Source: Bacteroidota bacterium (GTDB taxonomy: Bacteria; Bacteroidota; Ignavibacteria; UBA10030; UBA8401). From it: a stretch of 34,401 nt of DNA. The first letter of the stretch is position 1, and every line of letters begins with the position of its first letter. This document shows, piece by piece, positions 8,754-34,038 of this stretch. The position numbers and the translations under genes are program-made. The notes below the pieces were generated by a model, which saw only the letters and a list, made by a program, of their open reading frames with translations, did no database searches and was not told where the DNA came from. Location: contig WBUG01000034.1 of assembly GCA_008933835.1 (NCBI GenBank), positions 1 to 34,401 of the forward strand, given 5' to 3'.

Positions 8754-10922
8754 TCATTTCATCAGCATGAGCTTCATCGAATGCCGGTACCCCGGAGCGG
8801 TCAAGACCGCAAGGTAGATGCCCGAAGCGACAGGACGTCCAGCATCGTCCGTGCCGTTCCACTGCACATCGGTGGAACGGTCAGCGGACAGCCCGCCGGC
8901 ATCCAGGCGGCGGATGGACTGTCCGAGCACGTTCACGATGGTCAATGCTGCGTCCGCCGCTTTGACACCCTGAGGCAGCCGAACTCGCAGCGTGGTCGCC
9001 GGATTGAACGGGTTCGGGAAGGCGGCGAGGAGCGAATCGGCGGCCGGAACGGCGAGCGGAGGTTCCTCACGCACGGACACGAGGCCGGACTCATCACGGC
9101 AGGTGACGCAGGCCTTCAGCGTGTCATTCGGTTCCAGTGCGAGGAAAGCGGTGGACTGCCCGAGCACGCGGTACGTCAAGCTGAGATGGATGGCTTTCTT
9201 CGTCGCGCTATTGTTGTACTGGGATTCGAGCGCCGCTATGGCATGTCCGGCCCAGACGCTGGCGACCGTGCTGTCACCCGGGATGGCATCGTCAGCATTG
9301 ACCGTCATTTTTGCGCCGATGGTTGAACCTTTATAGATTCCGGCGATCTCAACGATGAACGGGAACTGCCCGTTGAACTGGCCGACCTGCGTGACCGTGC
9401 GGTCCACCGGAAGGTCCGTACCTCCCGCGGAGCCCGACACCGCGAACCGGTTGGAGCAAAAACCGGTCTCGACCCGTGTGATGAGGTCGAACGATTGGAT
9501 GGTCCCGCGCACCTGGTCCATCACGGTCGTCAGGTTGTTCTGCAGGTTCGAATTGAAACGGTACGCGGTATGGAATCCGCCGGACAGACGGGACAGATTC
9601 TCATAGAAGTACTCATTGCCGTAATAGTACCGTCCGTTGATGTAATAGTAGTTGACGCTCCAGTTCGAAAGGTCCGTGATGTGCACCGGCACGGAGGCGG
9701 GAAGGACATCCCGCAGCGACAGCAACAGAGGGTTTGCGACGGCGTAGTTCCCGAACTTGTCCGTACCGGCCATGAGCCAGAGGGAACCAGTCCCTCCGTT
9801 CGCTTTGAGGTACGACGCGCCGTCCGTGATGAGCGCCTGCATGTTGTCGGCGTTGAGGATGGCGTTCAACGACACCTGTGAGAAGGCGCTCTCGATGGAG
9901 GCGGAATCGCCACCGAACCAGCCCGATGCGCGGATGCGCTTGATCGGGCTCCCGGAGAAGATCAGGTTGAACGAATCCTTCGCGGAAAGGTTCGAAAGGA
10001 TGAACGACTTGAAGGTGTTGATGAAGGAGAGACTGGAATATCCGCTCTTCGATTCGTCGAACTCGAACAGAAAGACGATCTTCTGGCCGGTGTTCATATT
10101 GAACACCGTTGACGGCACGAACGACACCTGGTAGAACCCTTCCGACGGTGCCGACGGCTTGACATACCGCGACACGAACACCGATCGACCCGCTTTCGTC
10201 TTCACCGACATCGTCACCGCCGTCGAGAGAGCGCTCGACGGGACCTCGCCGTAGTAGTACTGCTGCTGTGTGAGAGAATCAAACCGGATCACCGGCTGGA
10301 ATCCGTTCTTCACCTGCTGGAATACGGGCGCCGTCACGTCGTCGGACTTCCAGACGAGGGTCGTCATCTTCGTCAGCGGTACGGAAGAGACGCGGACGAT
10401 ATGCGTGGGAATGGATGTCATCGCACTTCCCTCCCGCAGCGTCATCGGGACGAGGTACGATATCTTCACCTTCCGCGAACCGGTGCCGGGCAAGGGATAG
10501 ATGCGAAGACTGTACTGACCGGTGCCGTTCTTCATCAGCAGTGCAGGGTCGCGACGCCTCTTCACGATGTTCTCGTAGATGTTCGACGCGGTCCACCGGT
10601 CCATGATGAGCCCCTGCATGATGGTCTTATCGTCCATCCACAGCCAGAGATCGTTCACCATCGCCTCCGCCGGCAGGGAGAAGTTCATCTGCACCTCTAC
10701 GCTGTCCGCCGACGTGAAACCGAGGCCGGTCGCGGCGATGGTGAGGTACAGGTCGTGCTGGAAGTACGCCCCCTTCTGCCGAACAGCGAGGGTCGCCTGT
10801 GTGATGGTACCGGTCCCACCCCGCCACGTCTGCTGGGGATGCTGGATATAGAGGGAATTGTTTTGCGCCGTGAGACCGACGGCGGACACTGCCGTCATGA
10901 GGAAGAACATCATGGTTCGCAT
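8754..10922 (-). CDS. Secreted VIT/VWA-domain protein with type IX-like C-terminal sorting domain
   Basis: This is a 722-residue exported protein. A signal peptide (MRTMMFFLMTAVSAVGLTAQ) precedes a VIT-like domain (about 25-170; DRWTASNIYENIVKRRRDPALL and LPGTGSRKVKISYLVPM are typical). A von Willebrand A-like region (about 280-480) starts KIVFLFEFDESKSG, so a DxSxS metal-site motif is present at 289-293, though the rest of the MIDAS is not obvious. Residues 640-722 form a FlgD-like/Por-type sorting domain: FPNPFNPATTLRV, IVNVLGQSIRRLD, DVQWNGTDDAGRPVASGIYLAVL, ending KLMLMK. Such tails direct export through type IX secretion in FCB bacteria. A Tyr-rich stretch (NYYYINGRYYYGNEYFYEN) is unusual. 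The function is likely surface adhesion or protein interaction and is not known. CGGAG lies 5 bases before the ATG. It is 60 bp after nadA and may be co-transcribed. Confidence 0.82.
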   Translation of the reverse strand: MRTMMFFLMTAVSAVGLTAQNNSLYIQHPQQTWRGGTGTITQATLAVRQKGAYFQHDLYLTIAATGLGFTSADSVEVQMNFSLPAEAMVNDLWLWMDDKTIMQGLIMDRWTASNIYENIVKRRRDPALLMKNGTGQYSLRIYPLPGTGSRKVKISYLVPMTLREGSAMTSIPTHIVRVSSVPLTKMTTLVWKSDDVTAPVFQQVKNGFQPVIRFDSLTQQQYYYGEVPSSALSTAVTMSVKTKAGRSVFVSRYVKPSAPSEGFYQVSFVPSTVFNMNTGQKIVFLFEFDESKSGYSSLSFINTFKSFILSNLSAKDSFNLIFSGSPIKRIRASGWFGGDSASIESAFSQVSLNAILNADNMQALITDGASYLKANGGTGSLWLMAGTDKFGNYAVANPLLLSLRDVLPASVPVHITDLSNWSVNYYYINGRYYYGNEYFYENLSRLSGGFHTAYRFNSNLQNNLTTVMDQVRGTIQSFDLITRVETGFCSNRFAVSGSAGGTDLPVDRTVTQVGQFNGQFPFIVEIAGIYKGSTIGAKMTVNADDAIPGDSTVASVWAGHAIAALESQYNNSATKKAIHLSLTYRVLGQSTAFLALEPNDTLKACVTCRDESGLVSVREEPPLAVPAADSLLAAFPNPFNPATTLRVRLPQGVKAADAALTIVNVLGQSIRRLDAGGLSADRSTDVQWNGTDDAGRPVASGIYLAVLTAPGYRHSMKLMLMK

Positions 10923-17666: not shown

Positions 17667-18794
17667 TCAGCGTTTCTCGATGCCGATGCCGGGGCGGTTC
17701 GAGAGGACCAGTTTCCCCTCTTCCACCGTCGTCCCTTTGTAGAGATCGTTCTTGATGAGCAGCATCCCGTCCAGGTCCGCCCAGTCGCACATCGGCGAAA
17801 GATGCGAAGCGGCGGAGATGGCGCAGGAGGTTTCGGTCATGCAGCCGATGAGCACCTTCATGTTGTTGGCCTTGGCCATCATCAGCATCTTATGCGCTTC
17901 GCGCATGCCGGTGCACTTCATCAACTTGATGACGATCCCGCTGTACGCCCCCTTCACCTTCGGAATGTCGGAAAGGCGCTGACAGCTTTCGTCCGCCAGG
18001 ATGGGAAGCGGGCTCCGTTCGGTGAGCCAGGCGTGGTCGTCGAACCGCTCTTTCGCCATCGGCTGTTCGACGTACTGGACCCCCTTCTCCTTCAGCCAGT
18101 GGATCATATCCAGGGCGTAGAACTTGTCCTTCCATCCCTGGTTCGGGTCCGCGGTGAGCGGAACGTCCGTGACCGAGCGGATGGTCTCGATCATCTCCTT
18201 GTCGTTCCCCTTGCCGAGCTTCACCTTCAGGATCTTGAACCCTCCCGCCTCTTTCGTCTTCACCCGCACCACGTCCGCCGTATCGATGCCGATCGTGAAC
18301 GTCGTGGCGGGCGCTTTCGATGCGTCGAATCCCCAGATATTGTACCACGGCTGTCCGAGCAGTTTGCCGACAAGGTCGTGCAGCGCGATGTCCACCGCCG
18401 CTTTCGCCGCAGTGTTGTGGAACGCCAGCGCGTCGATATCGGACAGGATGGTCTCGAGATCGTACGGATTGTCATACTTCGACAGATCGACGCGCTTCAG
18501 GAACGCCATCGCACTTTCCTGCGATTCCCCGAGGTACGGCGGCATCGCCGCTTCGCCGTATCCGACGACGCCGTCGTATTCGATCTCCGTCAGCACGACG
18601 GGGGTCGTCGTCCGGCTCATGGCGGAGACGGTGAAGACATGTTTCAGTTCGAGCGTGTAGGGGCGGAACGAGAGCTTCATGCGTTTCTGTCCTTTCGGAG
18701 TCACACCGGCGGCGAACGCCGAAACGGGAGCGGCGATGGATGCGGCGCCGGCAAGGAAGGCGGAACGGACGAAATCGCGGCGGGTGGAGTTCAT
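17667..18794 (-). CDS. Tat-exported dipeptide epimerase (L-Ala-D/L-Glu epimerase type)
   Basis: This 375-residue enolase-superfamily protein belongs to the muconate lactonising subgroup. The N-terminus is a twin-arginine signal (MNSTRRDFVRSAFLAGAASIAAPVSAFA). The catalytic pieces are KVKLGK (Lys of KxK), ADPNQGW and VEQP and ADES (three metal ligands), and GIVIKLMKC (second catalytic Lys). Near the end, WADLDGMLLI contains the D-x-D motif that in L-Ala-D/L-Glu epimerases binds the dipeptide amino group. ATG 18794 gives the Tat signal, with AAAGG upstream; the longer frame to 18875 starts before the promoter. It probably epimerises murein-derived or other dipeptides outside the cytoplasm. The substrate is inferred from family motifs. 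The neighbours give no peptide-recycling genes. Confidence 0.87.
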   Translation of the reverse strand: MNSTRRDFVRSAFLAGAASIAAPVSAFAAGVTPKGQKRMKLSFRPYTLELKHVFTVSAMSRTTTPVVLTEIEYDGVVGYGEAAMPPYLGESQESAMAFLKRVDLSKYDNPYDLETILSDIDALAFHNTAAKAAVDIALHDLVGKLLGQPWYNIWGFDASKAPATTFTIGIDTADVVRVKTKEAGGFKILKVKLGKGNDKEMIETIRSVTDVPLTADPNQGWKDKFYALDMIHWLKEKGVQYVEQPMAKERFDDHAWLTERSPLPILADESCQRLSDIPKVKGAYSGIVIKLMKCTGMREAHKMLMMAKANNMKVLIGCMTETSCAISAASHLSPMCDWADLDGMLLIKNDLYKGTTVEEGKLVLSNRPGIGIEKR

Positions 18795-18828
18795 ATCATG
18801 CCTTTCGATGGGATGGAGGTGCCGTGTG

Positions 18829-18857
18829 AAGGTACCGTAAAATAGAGGCAATATCAA
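18829..18857 (-). promoter_or_regulatory. Dipeptide epimerase promoter
   Basis: The minus strand reads TTGATA, 17 bases, TACCTT. The start near 18822 leaves a leader of about 28 bases to ATG 18794. The same TTG-N20-TA geometry and the same TACCTT box occur before the thiolase operon. Confidence 0.55.
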
Positions 18858-18888
18858 ATTCGTTAACAATTCCATAACACGGCGATTC

Positions 18889-19626: not shown

Positions 19627-20616
19627 ATGGAACTCTACGTCATCTTCATCATCATCGTCGCTCTCGCGTTCGATTTTTTGAACGGGATGAACGACGCAGC
19701 CAACTCCATCGCCACCATCGTTTCGACCCGGGTCCTTTCCCCGAAGATGGCGGTGCTCTGGGCCGCATTCTTCAACTTCGTCGCCGCCTTCGGGTTCGGC
19801 GTCGCCGTCGCAACCACCATCGGAAAGGGGATCATCGACCCGAAGATCGTCACGCCGGATCTCATCTTCGGTTCGCTGGTCGGCGCCATCGTGTGGACGC
19901 ACCTCTGTACGCACTACGGATACCCCATCAGCGTCTCACACGCCCTCATCGGCGGACTGGCCGGTGCGGGATTGTATAAAGGGGGATTCGATGTCCTGAA
20001 CATGGGGGGCATTGAACGGGTCCTGCTCTTCATCTTCCTCTCCCCGACCATCGGCATGATCATGGCGTTCTTCCTGATGATCGCCGTCTATTGGATCTTC
20101 AAGGATTGGAACTCGCGCCAGGTGGACAAAGTCTTCCGCGTCGGCCAGCTCGTCTCCTCCGCGGCGTACAGCCTCGGACACGGTACGAACGATGCGCAGA
20201 AGACGATGGGCATCATCACCATCCTGCTCTACTCCACCGGTTACTTCCAGGGAGGCGAGATGTACGTTCCGTGGTGGGTCATCATCTCAGCGCACACCGC
20301 CATCGGACTCGGGACGCTGATGGGGGGATGGAAAGTGGTGGGCACGCTCGGCGTGAAACTGACGCATCTGAAACCGGTGCACGGATTCTGCGCGGAAGGG
20401 GCCGGATCGCTCGTGCTCCTCGGTACCGCGATGTTCGGCATTCCGGTCAGCACGACGCACACCATCGCCGGAGCCATCATGGGTGTCGGCGCCACACGCC
20501 GGCTCTCCGCCGTCCGCTGGGGCATCGTCGGGAAGATCGTGATGGCGTGGGTCTTCACCATTCCGACCTCCGCCGCCATCGGCGCCCTCTCCTACTGGCT
20601 CATCGATCTGTTCTAA
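19627..20616 (+). CDS. pit: Low-affinity inorganic phosphate transporter
   Basis: A 329-residue PiT-family membrane permease that symports phosphate (as metal phosphate or with protons). The two family repeats are both present: FLNGMNDAANSIATIVSTRVLSP in the first helix pair and LGHGTNDAQKTMGI in the second half. GIPVSTTHTIAGAIMGVGATRR near the C-terminus is a further hallmark. About ten hydrophobic helices can be counted. GGGAGG sits nine to ten bases before the ATG. It is co-transcribed with the DUF47 gene. Its stop overlaps that of the convergent phosphoesterase gene. Confidence 0.95.
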   Translation: MELYVIFIIIVALAFDFLNGMNDAANSIATIVSTRVLSPKMAVLWAAFFNFVAAFGFGVAVATTIGKGIIDPKIVTPDLIFGSLVGAIVWTHLCTHYGYPISVSHALIGGLAGAGLYKGGFDVLNMGGIERVLLFIFLSPTIGMIMAFFLMIAVYWIFKDWNSRQVDKVFRVGQLVSSAAYSLGHGTNDAQKTMGIITILLYSTGYFQGGEMYVPWWVIISAHTAIGLGTLMGGWKVVGTLGVKLTHLKPVHGFCAEGAGSLVLLGTAMFGIPVSTTHTIAGAIMGVGATRRLSAVRWGIVGKIVMAWVFTIPTSAAIGALSYWLIDLF

Positions 20617-22436
20617 GGTCCTGTCGCGAGCATCGTCACCGTGCCGTCCAGGTCGGTGACGATGACCCGCCCTCCTCCGAGCGGCACCGCCGTGTTCGTC
20701 ACGCCGACGCCGGTCCGGTGCCTCCACCGTACCGCGCCCGTCTCCGCATCCACCGCCAGCATCACTCCGTTCTTCGTCGGATAGTACAGCGTTCCGTCCC
20801 GCTCCTTGATCATCGCCGAATTGATGTCATACCCGAATCCCGCGTCGATGCCCCAGAACACGTCCGGCTCGGCTGCACGCGTACCGAGCGCATAGAGCGA
20901 ATCGTTCATCGTCCGCACGAACACCGTCCGGCCGTCTGCCGAACCGCCGATGGTCTCGCGGACGCGGAATCGGTTTGTGCGCCACACCGTCTCCCCGGAG
21001 ATGAGGTCGATGGCGGTCATGAACCGGTCCGGTGCGACGATGAAGACCCTTCCTTCCGCAATGACCGGTTCACATGCGGCCGGTGAGAGCAGCGTTCCCC
21101 TGCGTCCGGAGTTCCATTTCCACATCAGCTCTCCGTTCTGCGCATCAAGGCAGTACAGATGTTCATCCCATGCGCCGAACACGACACGGTCGTCCGTGAC
21201 CGCGGGGACGCATTCGACGAATCCGCCGACGCTCCGGTAGGACCACCGGACCGCCCCCGTCCGGATGTCCAGAGCACGGAACACTCCGTCACTTGCACCG
21301 ACGTATGCGACCCCCTTCCGGATGACCGGACATGCCACCACCGCGGCGCCGGTCTTCACTTTCCACCGCACTTTTCCGTTCTTCGCATCCAGTCCATAGA
21401 GACAGCTGTCCGTGGAACCGAACACCACGATCCCATCCGCCGCTGCCGGTGACGAATAGACCGGTCCGCCGGTCATCGTCTTCCACAACCGGCCTCCTGT
21501 CCCGGCATCGTAGGCATACATCGCTCCGGAAGCGTCGCCGACGAAGAGCGCGTTCCGAAACACCGCCGGTGTCGATGCGATGGTGAAACCGGTCGAGAGC
21601 TTCCACGCCGGCCGGACACGCGGGAACGAATCATTGACAGCGAACGAGGGACGCGGTGCCGCCGCAACAGGTGTGCGGGAAAGCGGATGCGTCAGCCAGA
21701 GAGTCTCCCGCTTCGACACCGGCGACCGTTCACGGTAGCGGATGGTGTCGCGCGTCATCTCGACGATGTTGTATCCCCCCTCCTCCTGCCGTGCCCGCAG
21801 GTTCGAGCGCCCCATGATGCCGGTGATCCCTTCGAACGATCTCACGCGGTTCGCATGTCCGTGGCCGTACAGCACCGCCTTCACATCGTGCGGCTTCAGA
21901 AGGTCGAGCACCTCGTACCAATTGTCGATCTCGTCATCGAGCGGATAATGGGTGAAGAAGATGACGGGCATCCCGGACGGGATGCCGGCGAGCACGGAGC
22001 GCAACCAGGCGACATCCTGCGGTGCGAAGTGTCCGTCCCCCATCTTGAGCACCGGCCCTTGATGCAGTCCGATGAACCGCACGCCGTCATGATCGAAATG
22101 GATCCGTTCGTACCCGAAGATACGGGCGAAGGAGGCGCCGCCGGAGCCGGACCACTTCATGTCGTGATTCCCCGGGATGATGTACCAGGGAACGGTGAGA
22201 CTGTCCAAGATCCTCTTCGCGATGCGCAGTTCGTCGTCGAACCCCGCTTCGGTGATGTCGCCGGTGAAGAGCGCGAAGGCGAGCCCCTGCTGCGCGTTGA
22301 TGTCCGCGACCGTCCGACGCAGGTCCTCCTCCGCCGTGACGTTGCCGATGTGCGTGTCCGTGACATGGGCGAACCGGATGGGACCGCTCCCGTACACCAG
22401 GAACGGGAGGAGCGAGAGCAGGGCGATAGTTCTCAT
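20613..22436 (-). CDS. Exported metallophosphoesterase fused to a PQQ-type beta-propeller
   Basis: A 607-residue exported protein. A signal peptide (MRTIALLSLLPFLVYGSG) is followed by a calcineurin-like phosphoesterase domain (about 20-250) with all metal motifs: VTDTHIG (Asp27, His29), FTGDI (Asp60), IPGNHD (Asn90, His91), FFTHYPL and YGHGHANR. From about 285 to the end come repeated blades of the PQQ/PQQ-like type: MYAYDAGTGGRLWKT, LYGLDAKNGKVRWKV, FRALDIRTGAVRWSY, LYCLDAQNGELMWKW, MTAIDLISGETVWRT and MLAVDAETGAVRWRH. This suggests six to seven blades. The blades may bind substrate or another protein; a quinone cofactor is not implied. The phosphatase substrate is unknown. It ends in a 4-base convergent overlap with pit. 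Proximity to phosphate transport is suggestive only. Confidence 0.87.
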   Translation of the reverse strand: MRTIALLSLLPFLVYGSGPIRFAHVTDTHIGNVTAEEDLRRTVADINAQQGLAFALFTGDITEAGFDDELRIAKRILDSLTVPWYIIPGNHDMKWSGSGGASFARIFGYERIHFDHDGVRFIGLHQGPVLKMGDGHFAPQDVAWLRSVLAGIPSGMPVIFFTHYPLDDEIDNWYEVLDLLKPHDVKAVLYGHGHANRVRSFEGITGIMGRSNLRARQEEGGYNIVEMTRDTIRYRERSPVSKRETLWLTHPLSRTPVAAAPRPSFAVNDSFPRVRPAWKLSTGFTIASTPAVFRNALFVGDASGAMYAYDAGTGGRLWKTMTGGPVYSSPAAADGIVVFGSTDSCLYGLDAKNGKVRWKVKTGAAVVACPVIRKGVAYVGASDGVFRALDIRTGAVRWSYRSVGGFVECVPAVTDDRVVFGAWDEHLYCLDAQNGELMWKWNSGRRGTLLSPAACEPVIAEGRVFIVAPDRFMTAIDLISGETVWRTNRFRVRETIGGSADGRTVFVRTMNDSLYALGTRAAEPDVFWGIDAGFGYDINSAMIKERDGTLYYPTKNGVMLAVDAETGAVRWRHRTGVGVTNTAVPLGGGRVIVTDLDGTVTMLATGP

Positions 22437-22508: not shown

Positions 22509-24956
22509 ATGAAATTCTTCCTTCCCGCCCTCCTGCTGGTCTCGTCCGCCTTCGCTCAGGAATGGATCCGGGTCAACCAGCTCGGGTACACGCCCTCCTC
22601 TCTGAAACCGGCGGTCTTCGTCAGCGCCTCGACCGGCCGCGTACCGCAGCTCTTCACCGTCCATGATGCCCTGACGGACCGCACCGTCTATGCTTCCTCC
22701 CGCATCACTTCCTTCGGACCGTACGGACCGTTCCACAGCACTGCCCGGTTCGATCTCTCCGGGTTCAAGGAACCGGGAACCTACTATATTAAGACCGACA
22801 CGGTCCGCTCGCCGGTCTTCCGCATCAGCGAAACGGTGTATGACGGAACGGCCGATTTCCTGCTCCGCTACATGCGCCAGCAGCGGAGCGGGTACAATCC
22901 GTACCTGGACGATTCCTGTCACACGCAGGACGGGTTCATCATCTATCACCCATCGCTCGACTCGACGCGCATCGACGTCTCGGGGGGCTGGCATGATGCA
23001 TCCGATTATCTTCAATATGTGACGACGAGCGCGACGGCGGTGTACCAGATGCTGACCGCATACGAACGCCGCCCGGCCTCCTTCGCAGACCGGCATCTCT
23101 CCAACGGCCGGCCCGGACGGAACGGCATACCGGACATTCTGGACGAAGCACGATGGGGACTCGAATGGCTGGTGAAGATGAACCCGGGACCGGACCTGAT
23201 GTTCAATCAGCTCGCGGATGACCGCGACCATCGCGGATTCCGTCTACCGACGGAGGACACGGTGTACTACGGTTTGGGCCGGTCCCGTCCGGTGTACACC
23301 GTCACCGGCAGGCCGCAGGGGATCTACCAGCACAAGAACCGTTCGACCGGCACCGCGTCGACCGCCGCGAAGTTCTCCTCCTCCTTCGCGCTCGGCGCGA
23401 GGCTGCTGAGCGGATACGATACGGCGTTCGCGTCCATCCTTCGACGGAAATCGGCCGATGCGTACCGGTTCGGCGAGCGTTCTCCCGGCGTCTGTCAGAC
23501 GGCTCCGTGCGGCGCACCGTATTTCTATGAGGAGGACAACTGGAGCGACGACATGCAGCTCGCCGCGGCGGAGCTCTTCCGGCAGACAGGCGACCCGCGG
23601 TATTCGTCCGAAGCCGTACGGTACGGACGAATGGAACCGGTCACTCCCTGGCTCGGAGCGGACACGGCACGGCATTATCAATGGTACCCGTTCGTGAACC
23701 TTGGCCATGTCCGAACGGCAAACATCGCCGGTGCCCGGAAGGAATTCATCGGCTATCTACGGCAAGGGATCGACAGCGTGTACCGGAAAGGGCGCGGCAA
23801 CGCGTTTTCATTTGGCATCCCGTTCATCTGGTGCTCGAACAATCTCGTCAGTTCCTTCCTGACCCAGGTGATGCTGTACCGTGAACTGAGCGGTGACCGG
23901 ACGTATGACATGATGGAAGCGTCGCTGCGGGACTGGCTCTTCGGCTGCAACATCTGGGGAACGAGCATGGTGTACGGTCTGCCCGCCTGGGGGGACACGC
24001 CGACCGATCCGCATTCCGCCTTCACGCACGTGTACGGGTATCCAATCGACGGTGGACTCATCGACGGCCCGGTCCGCTCCACCATCTTCGACCAGCACCG
24101 GCGGTACATCCGTCTCACGAAGCCGGACCCGTACGCCGCCCTGCAATCACCTCTGGCGGTCTATCATGACGACTGGGGCGATTACACGAACAATGAACCG
24201 ACGATGGACGGTACGGCTGGATTGACGATGGTACTCTCGGCACTGGAGAGCGGACGGAAGGCACCAGATCACCGGCTGAGTTCCCACGGCGGTATCGTCC
24301 GGTTCGATACGACAAAGCGGGAAGTGTATCTCGTCTTCACCGGACATGAGTACGCCGACGGCGGGGAGAGCATCCGGCGAACACTGAAGAAGCATTCCGT
24401 GAAAGCCTCCTTCTTCTTCACCGGCGATTTCTACCGGGAATCGCGATTCCGTCCTCTCATCGCGTCGCTCCGCAAGGAGGGTCACTACCTCGGTGCGCAT
24501 TCGGACCGACATTTGCTCTATGCGGATTGGGAACGGAGAGATTCACTGCTGGTGGACCGTGCGGCGTTCGAAGAGGACCTGCGTGGGAACTACCGCGCGA
24601 TGGAGGGGTTCGGGATTCGTCCCGGAGAAGCGCCGTATTTCCTTCCGCCGTACGAATGGTACAACCGGACCATCAGCGAGTGGACTGAAGGACTCGGGCT
24701 TCAGTTGGTGAACTTCACCGGAGGCACGACGTCGAACGCGGACTATACGACGCCGTCCATGAAGAACTACGTCCCGTCGGACACCATCGTCTCGCGCATC
24801 CTTTCATACGAGCGGCGTTCGACGAACGGACTCAACGGTTTCCTTCTTCTCTCCCATATCGGGACAGCGCCGGAACGGACGGATAAGCTGTACGACCGTC
24901 TCGGAGATATCATCCAGGAACTGAAGCGGCGGGGATATTCGTTCCGCAGATTATGA
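22509..24956 (+). CDS. Secreted GH9 glycosidase fused to a NodB-like polysaccharide deacetylase domain
   Basis: An 815-residue exported enzyme. It has a signal peptide (MKFFLPALLLVSSAFA), an N-terminal Ig-like domain (EWIRVNQLGYTPSSLKPAVF) and a family 9 catalytic barrel (about 110-580). In the barrel, GGWHDASDYLQY gives the nucleophile/base pair Asp163/Asp166 and YTNNEPTMDG gives the general acid Glu563. GNAFSFGIPFIWCSNN and WGTSMVYGLPAWGD match GH9 blocks. From about 600 to the end is a NodB-like domain (VKASFFFTGDFYRES, GHYLGAHSDRHLLY with HSxxH). Its first motif reads FTGHEYADGG in place of TFDDG, so metal binding may be altered. GH9 enzymes cleave beta-glucans such as cellulose; the second domain may act on acetylated or amino sugars or serve another role. 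AAGGG precedes the ATG. The gene overlaps HrpB by six bases at the 3' end. Confidence 0.88.
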   Translation: MKFFLPALLLVSSAFAQEWIRVNQLGYTPSSLKPAVFVSASTGRVPQLFTVHDALTDRTVYASSRITSFGPYGPFHSTARFDLSGFKEPGTYYIKTDTVRSPVFRISETVYDGTADFLLRYMRQQRSGYNPYLDDSCHTQDGFIIYHPSLDSTRIDVSGGWHDASDYLQYVTTSATAVYQMLTAYERRPASFADRHLSNGRPGRNGIPDILDEARWGLEWLVKMNPGPDLMFNQLADDRDHRGFRLPTEDTVYYGLGRSRPVYTVTGRPQGIYQHKNRSTGTASTAAKFSSSFALGARLLSGYDTAFASILRRKSADAYRFGERSPGVCQTAPCGAPYFYEEDNWSDDMQLAAAELFRQTGDPRYSSEAVRYGRMEPVTPWLGADTARHYQWYPFVNLGHVRTANIAGARKEFIGYLRQGIDSVYRKGRGNAFSFGIPFIWCSNNLVSSFLTQVMLYRELSGDRTYDMMEASLRDWLFGCNIWGTSMVYGLPAWGDTPTDPHSAFTHVYGYPIDGGLIDGPVRSTIFDQHRRYIRLTKPDPYAALQSPLAVYHDDWGDYTNNEPTMDGTAGLTMVLSALESGRKAPDHRLSSHGGIVRFDTTKREVYLVFTGHEYADGGESIRRTLKKHSVKASFFFTGDFYRESRFRPLIASLRKEGHYLGAHSDRHLLYADWERRDSLLVDRAAFEEDLRGNYRAMEGFGIRPGEAPYFLPPYEWYNRTISEWTEGLGLQLVNFTGGTTSNADYTTPSMKNYVPSDTIVSRILSYERRSTNGLNGFLLLSHIGTAPERTDKLYDRLGDIIQELKRRGYSFRRL

Positions 24957-30399: not shown

Positions 30400-30427
30400 A
30401 ATATACTGAGAAATAACAAAAAATCAA
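30400..30427 (-). promoter_or_regulatory. Promoter of the DUF3098-like gene
   Basis: The minus strand reads TTGATT, 16 bases, TATATT, GC. The -35 box overlaps the last codon and stop of the GH13 gene. The start near 30393 gives a leader of about 98 bases that includes the hairpin at 30314-30346. Confidence 0.45.
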
Positions 30428-33400
30428 CGGTCTTTTCGCCGCCGTGTGACCTTTTTCACATTGGACGGAGCACCGTGTTTTTTTGTTCCCTTGACCTCTG
30501 AGCGTACCATACTGCTGATTTTCGCTTTTTTTCCGCTGTCCTTCTTCCCGGAATTCTCCTCAAGCAGGTCCTGGAGACGATCCACTTTATATCCGGACCG
30601 TTCGGCGGACCGAATGACGCTCTTCACCCTCTCCTTCATGGCATCAAGATGCCGGTCGAACGGATTGTCGGTCTTCGTGCTGCTCATCGTACCGATGAAA
30701 CGAAGCGCGGCCATCCAGTGATACAGCCGTTCGAACGACTCTTTATTGAAGTACCATTGCAGTTCATGCTGATTCATGCCGAGGTGGTCCGCCGTTTCAA
30801 AATCGTTGAAGAGATGTTCCACAAGACCGGCATCGTCACCGGTGTCCATGGCGGCGTGCCGGTGGTTCCGCAGCAGCATCACCATGAGTTCCGGCGTCAT
30901 GCCAGTGTCGAGCTTCCCGCGGTTCCAGCGGGCACAGAGGTCATGGAGCGGGGCATCGAGCAGAAGTTCGGTCACGACGGACACGCCGGGGCTTCCCTTC
31001 ACCCCCTCCGGAACACCCGCGGCAATGTCGGTCAGCAGGTGATGGAGCACGATGATGGGAACGAACGATGGATGCGTCCAGGGTCCCGACTCCGTTCCTG
31101 CCGTGCGCGGGCGTTTCGACGTTATCCGTACCGCACAATCGATGCGCTGACGGAGCGTGAGCAGGAACTCCGTCCGGCCCCCGGCCACCGGCGTGAAGGG
31201 CACCGCGGCGTTCCGAGCATCATCGGCTGCGGTGACGAGTTCATCGGCGGTCACGGCATCGCCGAGACGCCGAACGGCGGCATGGAACGGTTCGAGGCGG
31301 ACCGAACGGACGAGACGTTCGACGCTCTCGACGCCGCCGGTGCCGACACGTTCCGCTGCCGCACGGATGACGCCGTCGGTGTCCGTCATTTCCGCGAAAT
31401 CGGTGAACACGGCGTACTGGAACGCATGGAGCCGCATCCGCCAGCCTTCCTCAGCGATGCGTCGGCCCGTGACGAGATGTTCGAGGTTGGTGCGGAGCTC
31501 ACGGAAGCGGTAGTACACTCCCTCGTCCGTCCGGAGGCCGAGAGCGTGCGCGAGCGAGACCGAACGCAGGGCGCCCCCCTCATGGTCCACCCGCTGCAGC
31601 GAGTGACGGAACGAGCCTTCGGTCTCCGCATACGCGTTATGGAACACGACGAACGCCCGTTCGTTCCCCGCCCGGTTCGAGAAGACGAAGACGTTCTCGT
31701 CCGGTCCGTCTCCGTCCCGCACGAAATCGAACAGCTCGAAGTGTTCGACGCCGCTGAAGAGCCACCGCTTGTGCATCAGCGGGAAGAGCTCCCGTTCATG
31801 CCGCCGCACGAGCCATTCGTCCGGCGTCTCCTGATAGTACGCCCGCTGGTACTCCATCCCGTACTTCTCGCGGTACCCCTCCACCTGGCCGTGCGCGAAC
31901 ATCGGCAGTCCCGGCAGCGTGACCATCAGCAGGGCGACACCGAAGTACTTGTCGTCCTTCCCGAACTGTTCGACGGCGGTCTGTTCGTCCGGATTGCTCA
32001 TGAAGTTGACGTACCGCTTGAGGATCTCGGGATTGAACTCCAGCGTGTTCCGGAGCAACGCCCGGAACTTCCCGTTCTCCTCCTTCATCAGCATGTGCAT
32101 GAACGCGCTGTTGTAGACGCGGTGCATGCCGAGCGTGCGGACGAAGTACCCTTCCATCAGCCAGAACGCCTCCGCCAGAAGGAGCGTCTGCGGCATCTCG
32201 CGGTTGATGCGGTCCACCACTTCGCGCCAGAACTCGTTCGGGAAGAGCGCGTCGAACTCGGCGCGGCTCAGCGCATGGTCCTGGCGGGACGGGACGCCGG
32301 AGGTGCCCGGCATCGGGTACCAGAGCCGCTGATAGTGCTTCTTCGCGAGCGTCATGGCCGCATCGAAGCGGATGACGGAGAACTTGCGAGCGACGTGGAA
32401 GATGGTGCCGATGACCGCCTCTCGCACATCGGCGCGGATGAGGTTCAGTTGCGCGGTGTCGTTCCACGGCATGCTGGTGCCGTCGTTCCCGTGGTAGAGG
32501 TAGCGCACTTCGCCGTTCCGTTTGTCCAAGCGCTGGAAGACCACCGCGGCGTCGCTGCGGGACCAGTAGCCGTCCTCGATGCGCAGTTCGACGTCGTGCT
32601 GCTCGGAGAGGTCCGGTCCGGTGAAGCGGTAGCTCGGATACGGCGGGTGTTCGCTCTGGATGAAGAACTCGGGATGTTCGATGACCCACTTCGAGTAGAT
32701 GCCCATATGGTTCGGCACCATATCTCCGGCCAGGCGGATGCCACGCTGCCAGGCGCGCCGGTTGAGGTCCTGGAACGCCTCCTCACCTCCCAGTTCCGCG
32801 GCGATCTCGTAATCATAGAGCGAATAGGCGGAGGAGACCGCATCGCTGTTCCCGTTGATCTGCTTGATGCGCTTCGACGCGCTGCTCCGCTCCCACACGC
32901 CGATGAGCCACAGTCCGGTGAAGTTCCATCGCGCGAGCTGGTCGAGCTCTTCGTCCGGGATCTCGTTCAGCCGCCGGATGGGGCGGGCATACTTCTTCGA
33001 GAGCTGGTCCAGCCACACGTAGGTGTTCTTGGCGATGATGACGACGTTCGGCATCCAGTCGATGTCCGCCGTGAACCGCTGCGGCTCTTCATAGAGGTAG
33101 TCCTCGGGACGCACCGGGATGCTGCGGCGTTCTGCACCGGACGCGCCGCCGCGCGGATAGACGGGCACGAACGTTTCGGCGGCCGGGGTTCCGCCCGGCG
33201 GGTGCATCACGTTCCACAGATAGCGCTCTTCCTCTTCGGAGAAGGCCGCTCCCCCCTCGATTCGTTCGAGCAGTTCTCCCGTCAGCACGATGCCCCACCG
33301 CTCTTTTAGAAAACCGATCTGCGCTTCGATGCTCTCCGGATGGGACAACATCGGCGCCCGCAGCGCGGTGAGGAACGGCTGCCGGTCCGGTCCGAACGGT

Positions 33401-34038
33401 CTCTCCTTCGCGAAGAAGTCGTCGAGGTGGGCGAAGAGGGCATGGTACGGCGTCGCAGAGGCGATGGAGGAGTCGTCGAAGAGTTCCCGCAGCGGACGAA
33501 GGGCGGGGTTCTGATTCGCCAGGTACAGCATGATGAGCTCTTCGAGCGTCACCTCCGTATGCCGGCGTCCGGCGGTTGTTGCATCGAGGTACCGCTCCGC
33601 GGTGATGACACCGCTAAAGACCGGCATCGGCGGGAACTCGGCGATGAATGCGAGGAGCGTCCGCCGCACTTCCGCCGTTCCCGATGTTTTCTTCAGGAAC
33701 GCCAACGCACGGCCGACCGCTCCCGGATTCTCCACTTCATCATAGATGCGAACGAGGAAATGTGCGATCTCATCGAGCAGACCGGCAGCGTTCACATACC
33801 CCGCACGGAGCCGCTGCTGCGGATCGTTCGCGATCCCGCGGACCCTGTTCATCTCGGCGGTAAGTTCATGCACCGCCCGGTAATTCGGGAACACAAGATT
33901 GCCGGTGGAGCGGAACAACGCCGTATTGACGGAGAACCTCTTCCGGGCCTTGAGCGAGACGTGGAATTCGTAGAGCGGGAACGGCGATGGACGCAGCGCG
34001 TGTCGGAGGGAGCGGATGGAGAGAGCGGACAACGGCAT
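30424..34038 (-). CDS. Large GH13 (alpha-amylase family) protein with unassigned N- and C-terminal regions
   Basis: A 1204-residue protein without a signal peptide, so probably cytoplasmic. A glycoside hydrolase family 13 barrel lies in the middle (about 345-790): region I GDMVPNHMGIYS, region II SVIRFDAAMTLA with nucleophile Asp559, region III LLAEAFWLMEGYF with acid/base Glu623, and region IV VNFMSNPDEQT with Asp684 where NHD is usual. About 340 residues before it and some 400 after it match no domain I can name. The end is very basic (EENSGKKDSGKKAKISSMVR to RRRKDR). It is likely an alpha-glucan hydrolase or transglycosylase in storage polysaccharide metabolism; the reaction is not certain. 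No Shine-Dalgarno is seen. The promoter is divergent from tRNA-Ala and holds an 18-bp palindrome. Confidence 0.85.
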   Translation of the reverse strand: MPLSALSIRSLRHALRPSPFPLYEFHVSLKARKRFSVNTALFRSTGNLVFPNYRAVHELTAEMNRVRGIANDPQQRLRAGYVNAAGLLDEIAHFLVRIYDEVENPGAVGRALAFLKKTSGTAEVRRTLLAFIAEFPPMPVFSGVITAERYLDATTAGRRHTEVTLEELIMLYLANQNPALRPLRELFDDSSIASATPYHALFAHLDDFFAKERPFGPDRQPFLTALRAPMLSHPESIEAQIGFLKERWGIVLTGELLERIEGGAAFSEEEERYLWNVMHPPGGTPAAETFVPVYPRGGASGAERRSIPVRPEDYLYEEPQRFTADIDWMPNVVIIAKNTYVWLDQLSKKYARPIRRLNEIPDEELDQLARWNFTGLWLIGVWERSSASKRIKQINGNSDAVSSAYSLYDYEIAAELGGEEAFQDLNRRAWQRGIRLAGDMVPNHMGIYSKWVIEHPEFFIQSEHPPYPSYRFTGPDLSEQHDVELRIEDGYWSRSDAAVVFQRLDKRNGEVRYLYHGNDGTSMPWNDTAQLNLIRADVREAVIGTIFHVARKFSVIRFDAAMTLAKKHYQRLWYPMPGTSGVPSRQDHALSRAEFDALFPNEFWREVVDRINREMPQTLLLAEAFWLMEGYFVRTLGMHRVYNSAFMHMLMKEENGKFRALLRNTLEFNPEILKRYVNFMSNPDEQTAVEQFGKDDKYFGVALLMVTLPGLPMFAHGQVEGYREKYGMEYQRAYYQETPDEWLVRRHERELFPLMHKRWLFSGVEHFELFDFVRDGDGPDENVFVFSNRAGNERAFVVFHNAYAETEGSFRHSLQRVDHEGGALRSVSLAHALGLRTDEGVYYRFRELRTNLEHLVTGRRIAEEGWRMRLHAFQYAVFTDFAEMTDTDGVIRAAAERVGTGGVESVERLVRSVRLEPFHAAVRRLGDAVTADELVTAADDARNAAVPFTPVAGGRTEFLLTLRQRIDCAVRITSKRPRTAGTESGPWTHPSFVPIIVLHHLLTDIAAGVPEGVKGSPGVSVVTELLLDAPLHDLCARWNRGKLDTGMTPELMVMLLRNHRHAAMDTGDDAGLVEHLFNDFETADHLGMNQHELQWYFNKESFERLYHWMAALRFIGTMSSTKTDNPFDRHLDAMKERVKSVIRSAERSGYKVDRLQDLLEENSGKKDSGKKAKISSMVRSEVKGTKKHGAPSNVKKVTRRRKDR

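Follow-up and report, generated by a model that had tools for sequence, protein, structure and literature searches.

The window, meaning the whole stretch of 34,401 nucleotides analyzed here, carries at 22509..24956 of the plus strand an ATG-initiated open reading frame encoding a GH9-NodB fusion protein of 815 amino acids plus stop, with full-length relatives in other genomes. All features of this protein described below lie on the plus strand. The polypeptide starts with a probable signal peptide, judged by eye from the sequence (residues 1-16, 22509..22556), and continues with a CelD_N Ig-like domain (residues 17-100, 22557..22808; Pfam PF02927, 5.4e-17), the GH9 catalytic domain (residues 111-576, 22839..24236; PF00759, 1.1e-66), a linker (residues 577-591, 24237..24281) and a NodB/CE4-fold domain (residues 592-815, 24282..24953; PF01522). 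The Polysacc_deac_1 match spans residues 601-733 (3.9e-9, 37 bits for a curated cut-off of 23.1), the Glyco_hydro_9 match scores 226.5 bits for a curated cut-off of 27.7, and all three Pfam matches, CelD_N included, exceed their cut-offs. That a GH9 is joined to a NodB-like domain, as proposed in a preliminary description, is therefore borne out by domains above cut-off in a single frame. Modeled with AlphaFold2, the full-length protein reaches a mean pLDDT of 87.4, with a weak point of low confidence at residues 584-586, in the linker between the two domains; the NodB domain alone reaches 95.0.

The fusion gene is surrounded by housekeeping genes, there is no polysaccharide-utilization locus, and no murein-recycling genes were found within the window itself. 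The divergent neighbor (20613..22436, minus strand) encodes a metallophosphoesterase with a PQQ-type beta-propeller, as identified by Pfam. Further away lies an enolase-superfamily gene (17667..18875, minus strand), most similar to models of N-acetyl-D-Glu racemase and L-Ala-D/L-Glu epimerase, although below their cut-offs; we regard it as a weak contextual lead. The window also holds a 722-residue protein with VIT and FlgD_ig domains (8754-10922, minus strand) and a 1204-residue protein with a weak partial alpha-amylase match (30424-34038, minus strand; PF00128, 36.8 bits). In the genome from which the window comes, the fusion gene is the sole GH9 gene found. It is one of five PF01522 matches there, and one other of these carries an ordinary TFDDGP motif.

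Both families are already known; what is new is a variant, the coupled subfamily with its rebuilt NodB site. Among the matches listed in a search of open-licence PMC articles, covering titles and the starts of abstracts, no paper dealt with a GH9-NodB fusion or with a peptidoglycan-acting GH9. In the parts consulted, PMC5238381 describes GH9 and CE4 as separate genes on one Bacteroides clone, and PMC4071793 deals with a different family.

Catalytic site of the GH9 domain

Residue conservation was analyzed in 79 linked GH9 sequences, partial ones covering 540 query residues or fewer being left out; three of the 79 have no NodB gene in the stretch covered. The catalytic residues Asp163 and Asp166 (22995..23006) and Glu563 (24195..24197) are invariant in all of them, and the GH9 active site is complete, exactly as first described. 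A DDRDH sequence at residues 237-241 (23217..23231) is likewise found in 79/79, and this stretch, like D519, H553 and D567, is conserved in at least 78 of the 79 sequences. Parts of DDRDH also occur in control GH9s from the window's class (D240 in 20/20), so this feature is wider than the link with NodB.

Another change concerns residues 501-507 (24009..24029), which read PHSAFTH where the endoglucanases 3x17 and 5u2o have PHHR, which we read as a PROSITE-like motif. According to the alignments and columns, H502 is kept and is followed by S/T/L/A and then by A/S/P, with neither His nor Arg at these positions in any of the 79 sequences. This altered subsite motif goes beyond what the preliminary description had reported.

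The predicted model shows the (alpha/alpha)6 fold of GH9, and its nearest solved structure is the endoglucanase 3x17 (Z 38.5, rmsd 2.9, 510 residues aligned), with which it shares about 29 % identity. The CelD_N GH9 endoglucanases (3x17, J30 5u2o/5u0h, CelD 1clc and BoGH9A 6dht) have the same domain order, fold and Asp/Asp/Glu set; they differ from the present protein, in which PHSAFTH replaces the PHHR-type motif, DDRDH is inserted and a NodB domain is added. The GH9 glucosaminidases 5dgq and 6gdt are farther by fold (Z 29.2-29.7 versus 38.5 for 3x17), and phmmer gives 5.8e-6 for 6gdt versus 1.6e-34 for 3x17.

Predicted catalytic site of the NodB domain

The motif columns were derived from 106 non-identical NodB-domain sequences, one identical row of 107 having been dropped; they comprise an 80-locus set (the best 80 of 540 confirmed relatives), sequences from other genomes and the window. 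As previously noted, residues 610-619 read FTGHEYADGG instead of TFDDG, and HSxxH is retained as HSDRH at 664-668. The altered MT1 (FTGHEYADG, residues 610-618, 24336..24362) has essentially the consensus F[TS][GA][HDG][ED]xx[DE]G in the 106 sequences. Position 611 is T or S, position 612 is G or A with a single S, and position 613 is H in 52, D in 41, G in 12 and A in one. Position 614 is E in 91, D in 14 and R in one, which makes it acidic in 105/106, the exception being L070. Position 617 is D in 83, E in 21 and N in two, and position 618 is G in 104. The canonical TFDD, which provides both the base and the metal Asp, is absent, as T/S and G/A occupy both positions.

The other motifs are affected to different degrees. 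In MT2 (HSDRHLLY, residues 664-671, 24498..24521), H664, S665 and H668 are each present in 106/106. MT3 (PPYEWYN, residues 713-719, 24645..24665) is altered as well, which the preliminary description had not recognized: the usual Arg is gone, position 712, the MT3 Arg site of CE4 proteins, being L/M/I/V in 106/106, and Glu716 is invariant (106/106). D745 in the MT4 region (SNADYTTP, residues 742-749, 24732..24755) and both H783 and R790 in the MT5 region (residues 781-793, 24849..24887) are also found in all 106 sequences. The suggestion of a changed metal site with a new role is half supported: MT1 is altered, but the MT2 His pair, the MT4 Asp and the MT5 His, kept in 106/106, favor a working site in which an acidic ligand has been replaced. 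Decay, chance or a sequencing error behind the motif was ruled out, because the motif is conserved in 106 homologues and the family is discrete.

It had also been proposed that an alignment with CE4 structures would reveal the substitute for the catalytic Asp. When the domain is aligned with 2j13 and 1ny1 (PdaA) by HMMER, Thr611 and Gly612 fall on the MT1 Asp and Asn, followed by one inserted residue. As position 614 is acidic in 105/106 and position 617 varies (D83/E21/N2) and aligns with Asn78-type positions of 2j13/1ny1, Glu614 would be a better candidate for the replaced acidic ligand than Asp617, the Asp of ADGG, which is less likely to bind metal.

Positions 613 and 614 appear to vary together: the pairs are HE in 51 sequences, DE in 40, GD in 12, and AD, HD and DR in one each, so that H or D precedes E in 91/93, and G or A, neither of which is a metal ligand, precedes D in 13/13. 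On a tree built without these two columns, each site changes eight times. An independent-pairs test found only two pairs on supported branches and was not significant; as there are just these two, the co-variation is suggestive only.

Structural relatives of the NodB domain

The solved structure nearest to the NodB model is BA0150 (4m1b; Z 24.0, rmsd 1.7, 191 residues aligned), closely followed by BA3943 (Z 23.4 and 23.3), Bc1960 (23.0) and PdaA (22.1), and acetylxylan esterases are also among the fold matches. The best profile matches are 2j13 and PdaA. In the consulted part of PMC10967932, the latter two are grouped as MurNAc peptidoglycan deacetylases, and BA0150 and BA3943 are described as pseudoenzymes. 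The MurNAc-group deacetylases (BsPdaA 1w17/1ny1 and BaCE4 2j13) and BA0150 share the fold, MT2, the MT4 Asp and the MT5 His with the present domain at about 22-27 % identity. In contrast to the TFDN-type MT1 of the MurNAc group, the present domain has FTG[HDG][ED] with a one-residue insertion, and the MT3 Arg of that group is replaced here, with Glu716 in addition.

Distribution of the subfamily and linkage with GH9

A profile search with the NodB domain in 395 sampled genomes of the phylum (limit 1e-30) retrieved 42 genes of the altered subfamily in 41 genomes, the weakest match being 1.3e-83. The altered motif marks a discrete, conserved subfamily. Among the 42 genes, 23 are in frame with GH9, eight adjoin a GH9 gene and the other 11 are located elsewhere. 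In the 80-locus set, which is biased to close relatives because it holds the best 80 of 540, there are 37 fused genes, 19 that share the locus with GH9 and 24 without GH9 in the stretch; contig-end loci were kept, and these 24 include truncated loci and L042. The latter has a 327-residue open reading frame (L042:7692-8672) that starts like the GH9-NodB protein and lacks most of GH9.

Adjacent pairs occur in both orders, GH9-NodB and NodB-GH9 (the latter in L049, L054, L058 and L092). The best tree requires at least 27 changes of arrangement, some of which may be contig ends.

MurQ was found in 40 of the 41 carrier genomes versus 236 of the 354 others (Fisher p 3.4e-6, counted by genome), and in 33 of 34 carrier genera versus 115 of 137 others (p 0.03); this association is confounded by ancestry. 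The sole exception among the carriers is the window's own genome, in which the MurQ match is partial and lies at the end of a contig.

Gene neighborhoods

Each neighbor family owes its name to the Pfam or NCBIfam match of a single representative and was extended to other loci by BLAST similarity. Six kinds of murein genes were considered, namely MurQ, GHL10, BadF/MurK-like, Amidase_2, SpoIID and AmpG-like, with queries drawn from the 80-locus set itself; the BadF representative is under the Pfam cut-off and the AmpG-like one under the NCBIfam cut-off. Murein-recycling genes are present in 18 of the best 80 of 540 loci, with two or more kinds in 17 of them. These 18 loci belong to five lineages: nine Pontibacter, four Prolixibacteraceae-type, three Proteiniphilum-type, one Cyclobacteriaceae and one Ignavibacteriae. 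The other 62 of the 80 have none of these kinds, and the gene is often solitary.

In the Pontibacter loci, SusC, SusD, GHL10, GH9, NodB, amidase, phosphoesterase, MurQ and SSF genes follow each other, mostly in one direction. In the Prolixibacteraceae-type loci, MurQ and a BadF-type kinase, present in all four, run divergently to GH9-NodB, and next come transglutaminase, GHL10 and/or SSF, DUF5009 and Golvesin genes; an SSF symporter is present in three of the four. The Proteiniphilum-type loci comprise GH9-NodB, Golvesin, GT2, SpoIID and AmpG-like genes. GHL10, which we take to include DigH, is common, with seven matches in the window's own genome, and DUF5009 is presumably NagX/HGSNAT-like. 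DigH is described as a hydrolase specific for denuded glycans in the consulted part of PMC12288456.

These arrangements recall MurNAc scavenging by Tannerella forsythia (murT, murK, murQ, ampG). As far as the consulted parts of the two sources go, its murTKQ operon comprises an SSF symporter, a BadF-type kinase and MurQ (PMC5790795), and the AmpG gene sits in the same cluster (PMC7670621). Some of the present relatives have SSF, a BadF-type kinase and MurQ, and some have AmpG-like and SpoIID genes beside the gene; no GH9-NodB protein is mentioned in those parts of PMC5790795 and PMC7670621.

The murein context is not universal, since none of the six kinds was found in 20 further linked loci (19 fused and one adjacent, out of 31 fused or adjacent genes). 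Nor was any found in 40 control GH9 loci, of which 20 come from the window's class, with about 26-31 % identity, and 20 are more distant, and one of which has no usable GH9. This control (0/40) makes a chance neighborhood unlikely, but it is imperfect: it comes from other lineages, and the epimerase-like gene is commoner in it (12/40) than in the best 80 of 540 loci (3/80), for which reason that gene was dropped as an argument. In a 4.5-Mb genome, a single-copy gene would be expected to fall within about 8.7 kb by chance in about 0.4 % of cases.

In 10 of the best 80 of 540 loci, the gene is accompanied by a relative of the phosphoesterase-propeller protein, in differing orientations: eight Pontibacter loci, plus L034 and L037 in two orientations. 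The phosphoesterase-propeller protein is a possible functional partner. SusC-type receptor genes occur in 16 of the same 80 loci. A large Golvesin_C protein adjoins GH9-NodB in L063 (8667-11672) and seven other loci, that is in 8/80 of this set and in 1/20 of the further loci.

The control loci form two groups with contexts of their own. In L137-L156, a second GH9 class from the window's taxonomic class (26-31 % identity) forms part of a conserved block that also contains a KaiC-like ATPase as well as TPR and GT2 genes, with the epimerase-like enolase-superfamily gene in 12/20 and an NlpC/P60 gene in eight. In L157-L176, which hold the third, more distant GH9 class, some loci lie in exopolysaccharide-type clusters, and eight contain glycosyltransferase, GNAT-type and ordinary PF01522 deacetylase genes.

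Discussion

We predict that the fusion protein is secreted and combines two catalysts acting on beta-linked amino-sugar glycans, with peptidoglycan fragments as the likeliest substrate, and give this reading a probability of roughly 45 %. Peptidoglycan is favored because of the profile matches to the MurNAc group, as grouped in the consulted part of PMC10967932, and because of the murein neighborhoods; the frequency of MurQ in carrier genomes, although confounded by ancestry, also counts for it. We hold it tentatively, since the murein context is absent from the 20 further loci and since two of the nearest folds are pseudoenzymes in the same source. That the GH9 fold is nearest to an endoglucanase (3x17), and that nine of the 18 murein loci come from one genus, also count against it. 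The earlier proposal of an attack on an acetylated or amino-sugar-containing polymer is thus supported by the MurNAc-deacetylase matches and by the 18 loci with murein genes among the best 80 of 540, and weakened by the absence of such genes in the 20 further loci.

We infer metal binding, the roles of Glu614, Glu716 and Arg790, the order of the steps and the substrate, as follows. The NodB domain would remove an N-acetyl group using a metal coordinated by His664, His668 and an acidic residue of MT1, for which Glu614 is the first choice. With the MT1 Asp lost, a different invariant acid, for which Glu716 is the candidate, would act as the base, and His783 with Asp745 would form the acid relay. 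R790 or R677, located elsewhere, could substitute for the MT3 Arg. The GH9 domain would then cut the neighboring beta-glycosidic bond with its inverting Asp/Asp/Glu set and a changed substrate cleft, and the products may enter sugar uptake and MurQ-type catabolism. This assignment is proposed because MT2, MT4 and MT5 are kept and because there are precedents in the consulted parts of two sources: CE4 proteins that lack the MT5 His show no activity, whereas atypical ones in which this His is kept are capable of metal binding or activity and can function with altered ligands (PMC11713874), and the MT3 Arg can be replaced by an Arg from another location (PMC10967932).

The invariance of these residues also bears on whether the NodB domain could be catalytically dead and merely bind or position the substrate for GH9. 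Both MT1 Asp positions are indeed Thr/Ser and Gly/Ala, the MT3 Arg is lost, and two of the nearest folds are described as pseudoenzymes in the consulted part of PMC10967932. However, all 106 sequences retain the MT2 His pair, the MT4 Asp and the MT5 His, and 105/106 have E/D at 614, which points to a working metal site with a replaced acidic ligand and is in line with the metal binding or activity possible in atypical CE4 proteins that keep the MT5 His, as reported in the part of PMC11713874 consulted. We therefore consider a dead domain quite improbable. The same two-step chemistry could instead be directed at another amino-sugar polymer, such as chitin or chitosan oligosaccharides or an exopolysaccharide. 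In Vibrio, a CE4 deacetylase is paired in one pathway with a GH9 exo-beta-D-glucosaminidase. Such glucosaminidases exist within GH9, as the PDB titles of 5dgq and 6gdt attest, and the Vibrionaceae enzymes have the GH9 fold and amino-sugar activity; their glucosaminidase and deacetylase are two separate proteins, whereas the present domains form one chain. In loci L109 and L092, genes for a ROK kinase, an MFS transporter and a sugar isomerase occur without any of the six kinds of murein genes, L071 has ROK and MFS, and the SusC-type receptors in 16 of the best 80 of 540 loci would also fit. Nevertheless, other GH9 folds are nearer than the glucosaminidases (Z only 29.2-29.7), and no chitinase is among the neighbor families named, many neighbors being unannotated; we consider a substrate of this kind less probable than peptidoglycan.

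Activity on a plant or algal polymer, with a GH9 endo-beta-glucanase or hemicellulase joined to an O-acetyl esterase, is unlikely. It would resemble published xylanase-CE4 fusions, in which, according to the consulted parts of PMC4928363 and PMC6626019, a glycosidase and a CE4-type domain likewise share one chain, the glycosidase there being GH10 or GH11 instead of GH9. The endoglucanase as the nearest GH9 structure and the acetylxylan esterases among the NodB fold matches agree with it, but the PHHR-type motif is missing, DDRDH is new and invariant, the genome has a single GH9 gene in housekeeping surroundings with no polysaccharide-utilization locus, and 18 of the best 80 of 540 loci contain murein genes.

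Returning to peptidoglycan fragments as the preferred substrate, a more far-reaching version, which we regard as doubtful, is that this would be the first GH9 specialized for the peptidoglycan glycan, combined with a NodB deacetylase of new catalytic make-up: the MT1 Glu/Asp ligand shifted, the base on the MT3 Glu and the Arg supplied from another loop. Together they would constitute a murein-scavenging unit distributed across MAGs of Bacteroidota, Ignavibacteria, KSB1, Marinimicrobia and Acidobacteria type. If this is true, a large family annotated as cellulase and xylan/chitin deacetylase would move to amino-sugar and cell-wall recycling, and a NodB site in which both MT1 Asp are replaced and the rest is kept would indicate how far this metal center can be rebuilt.
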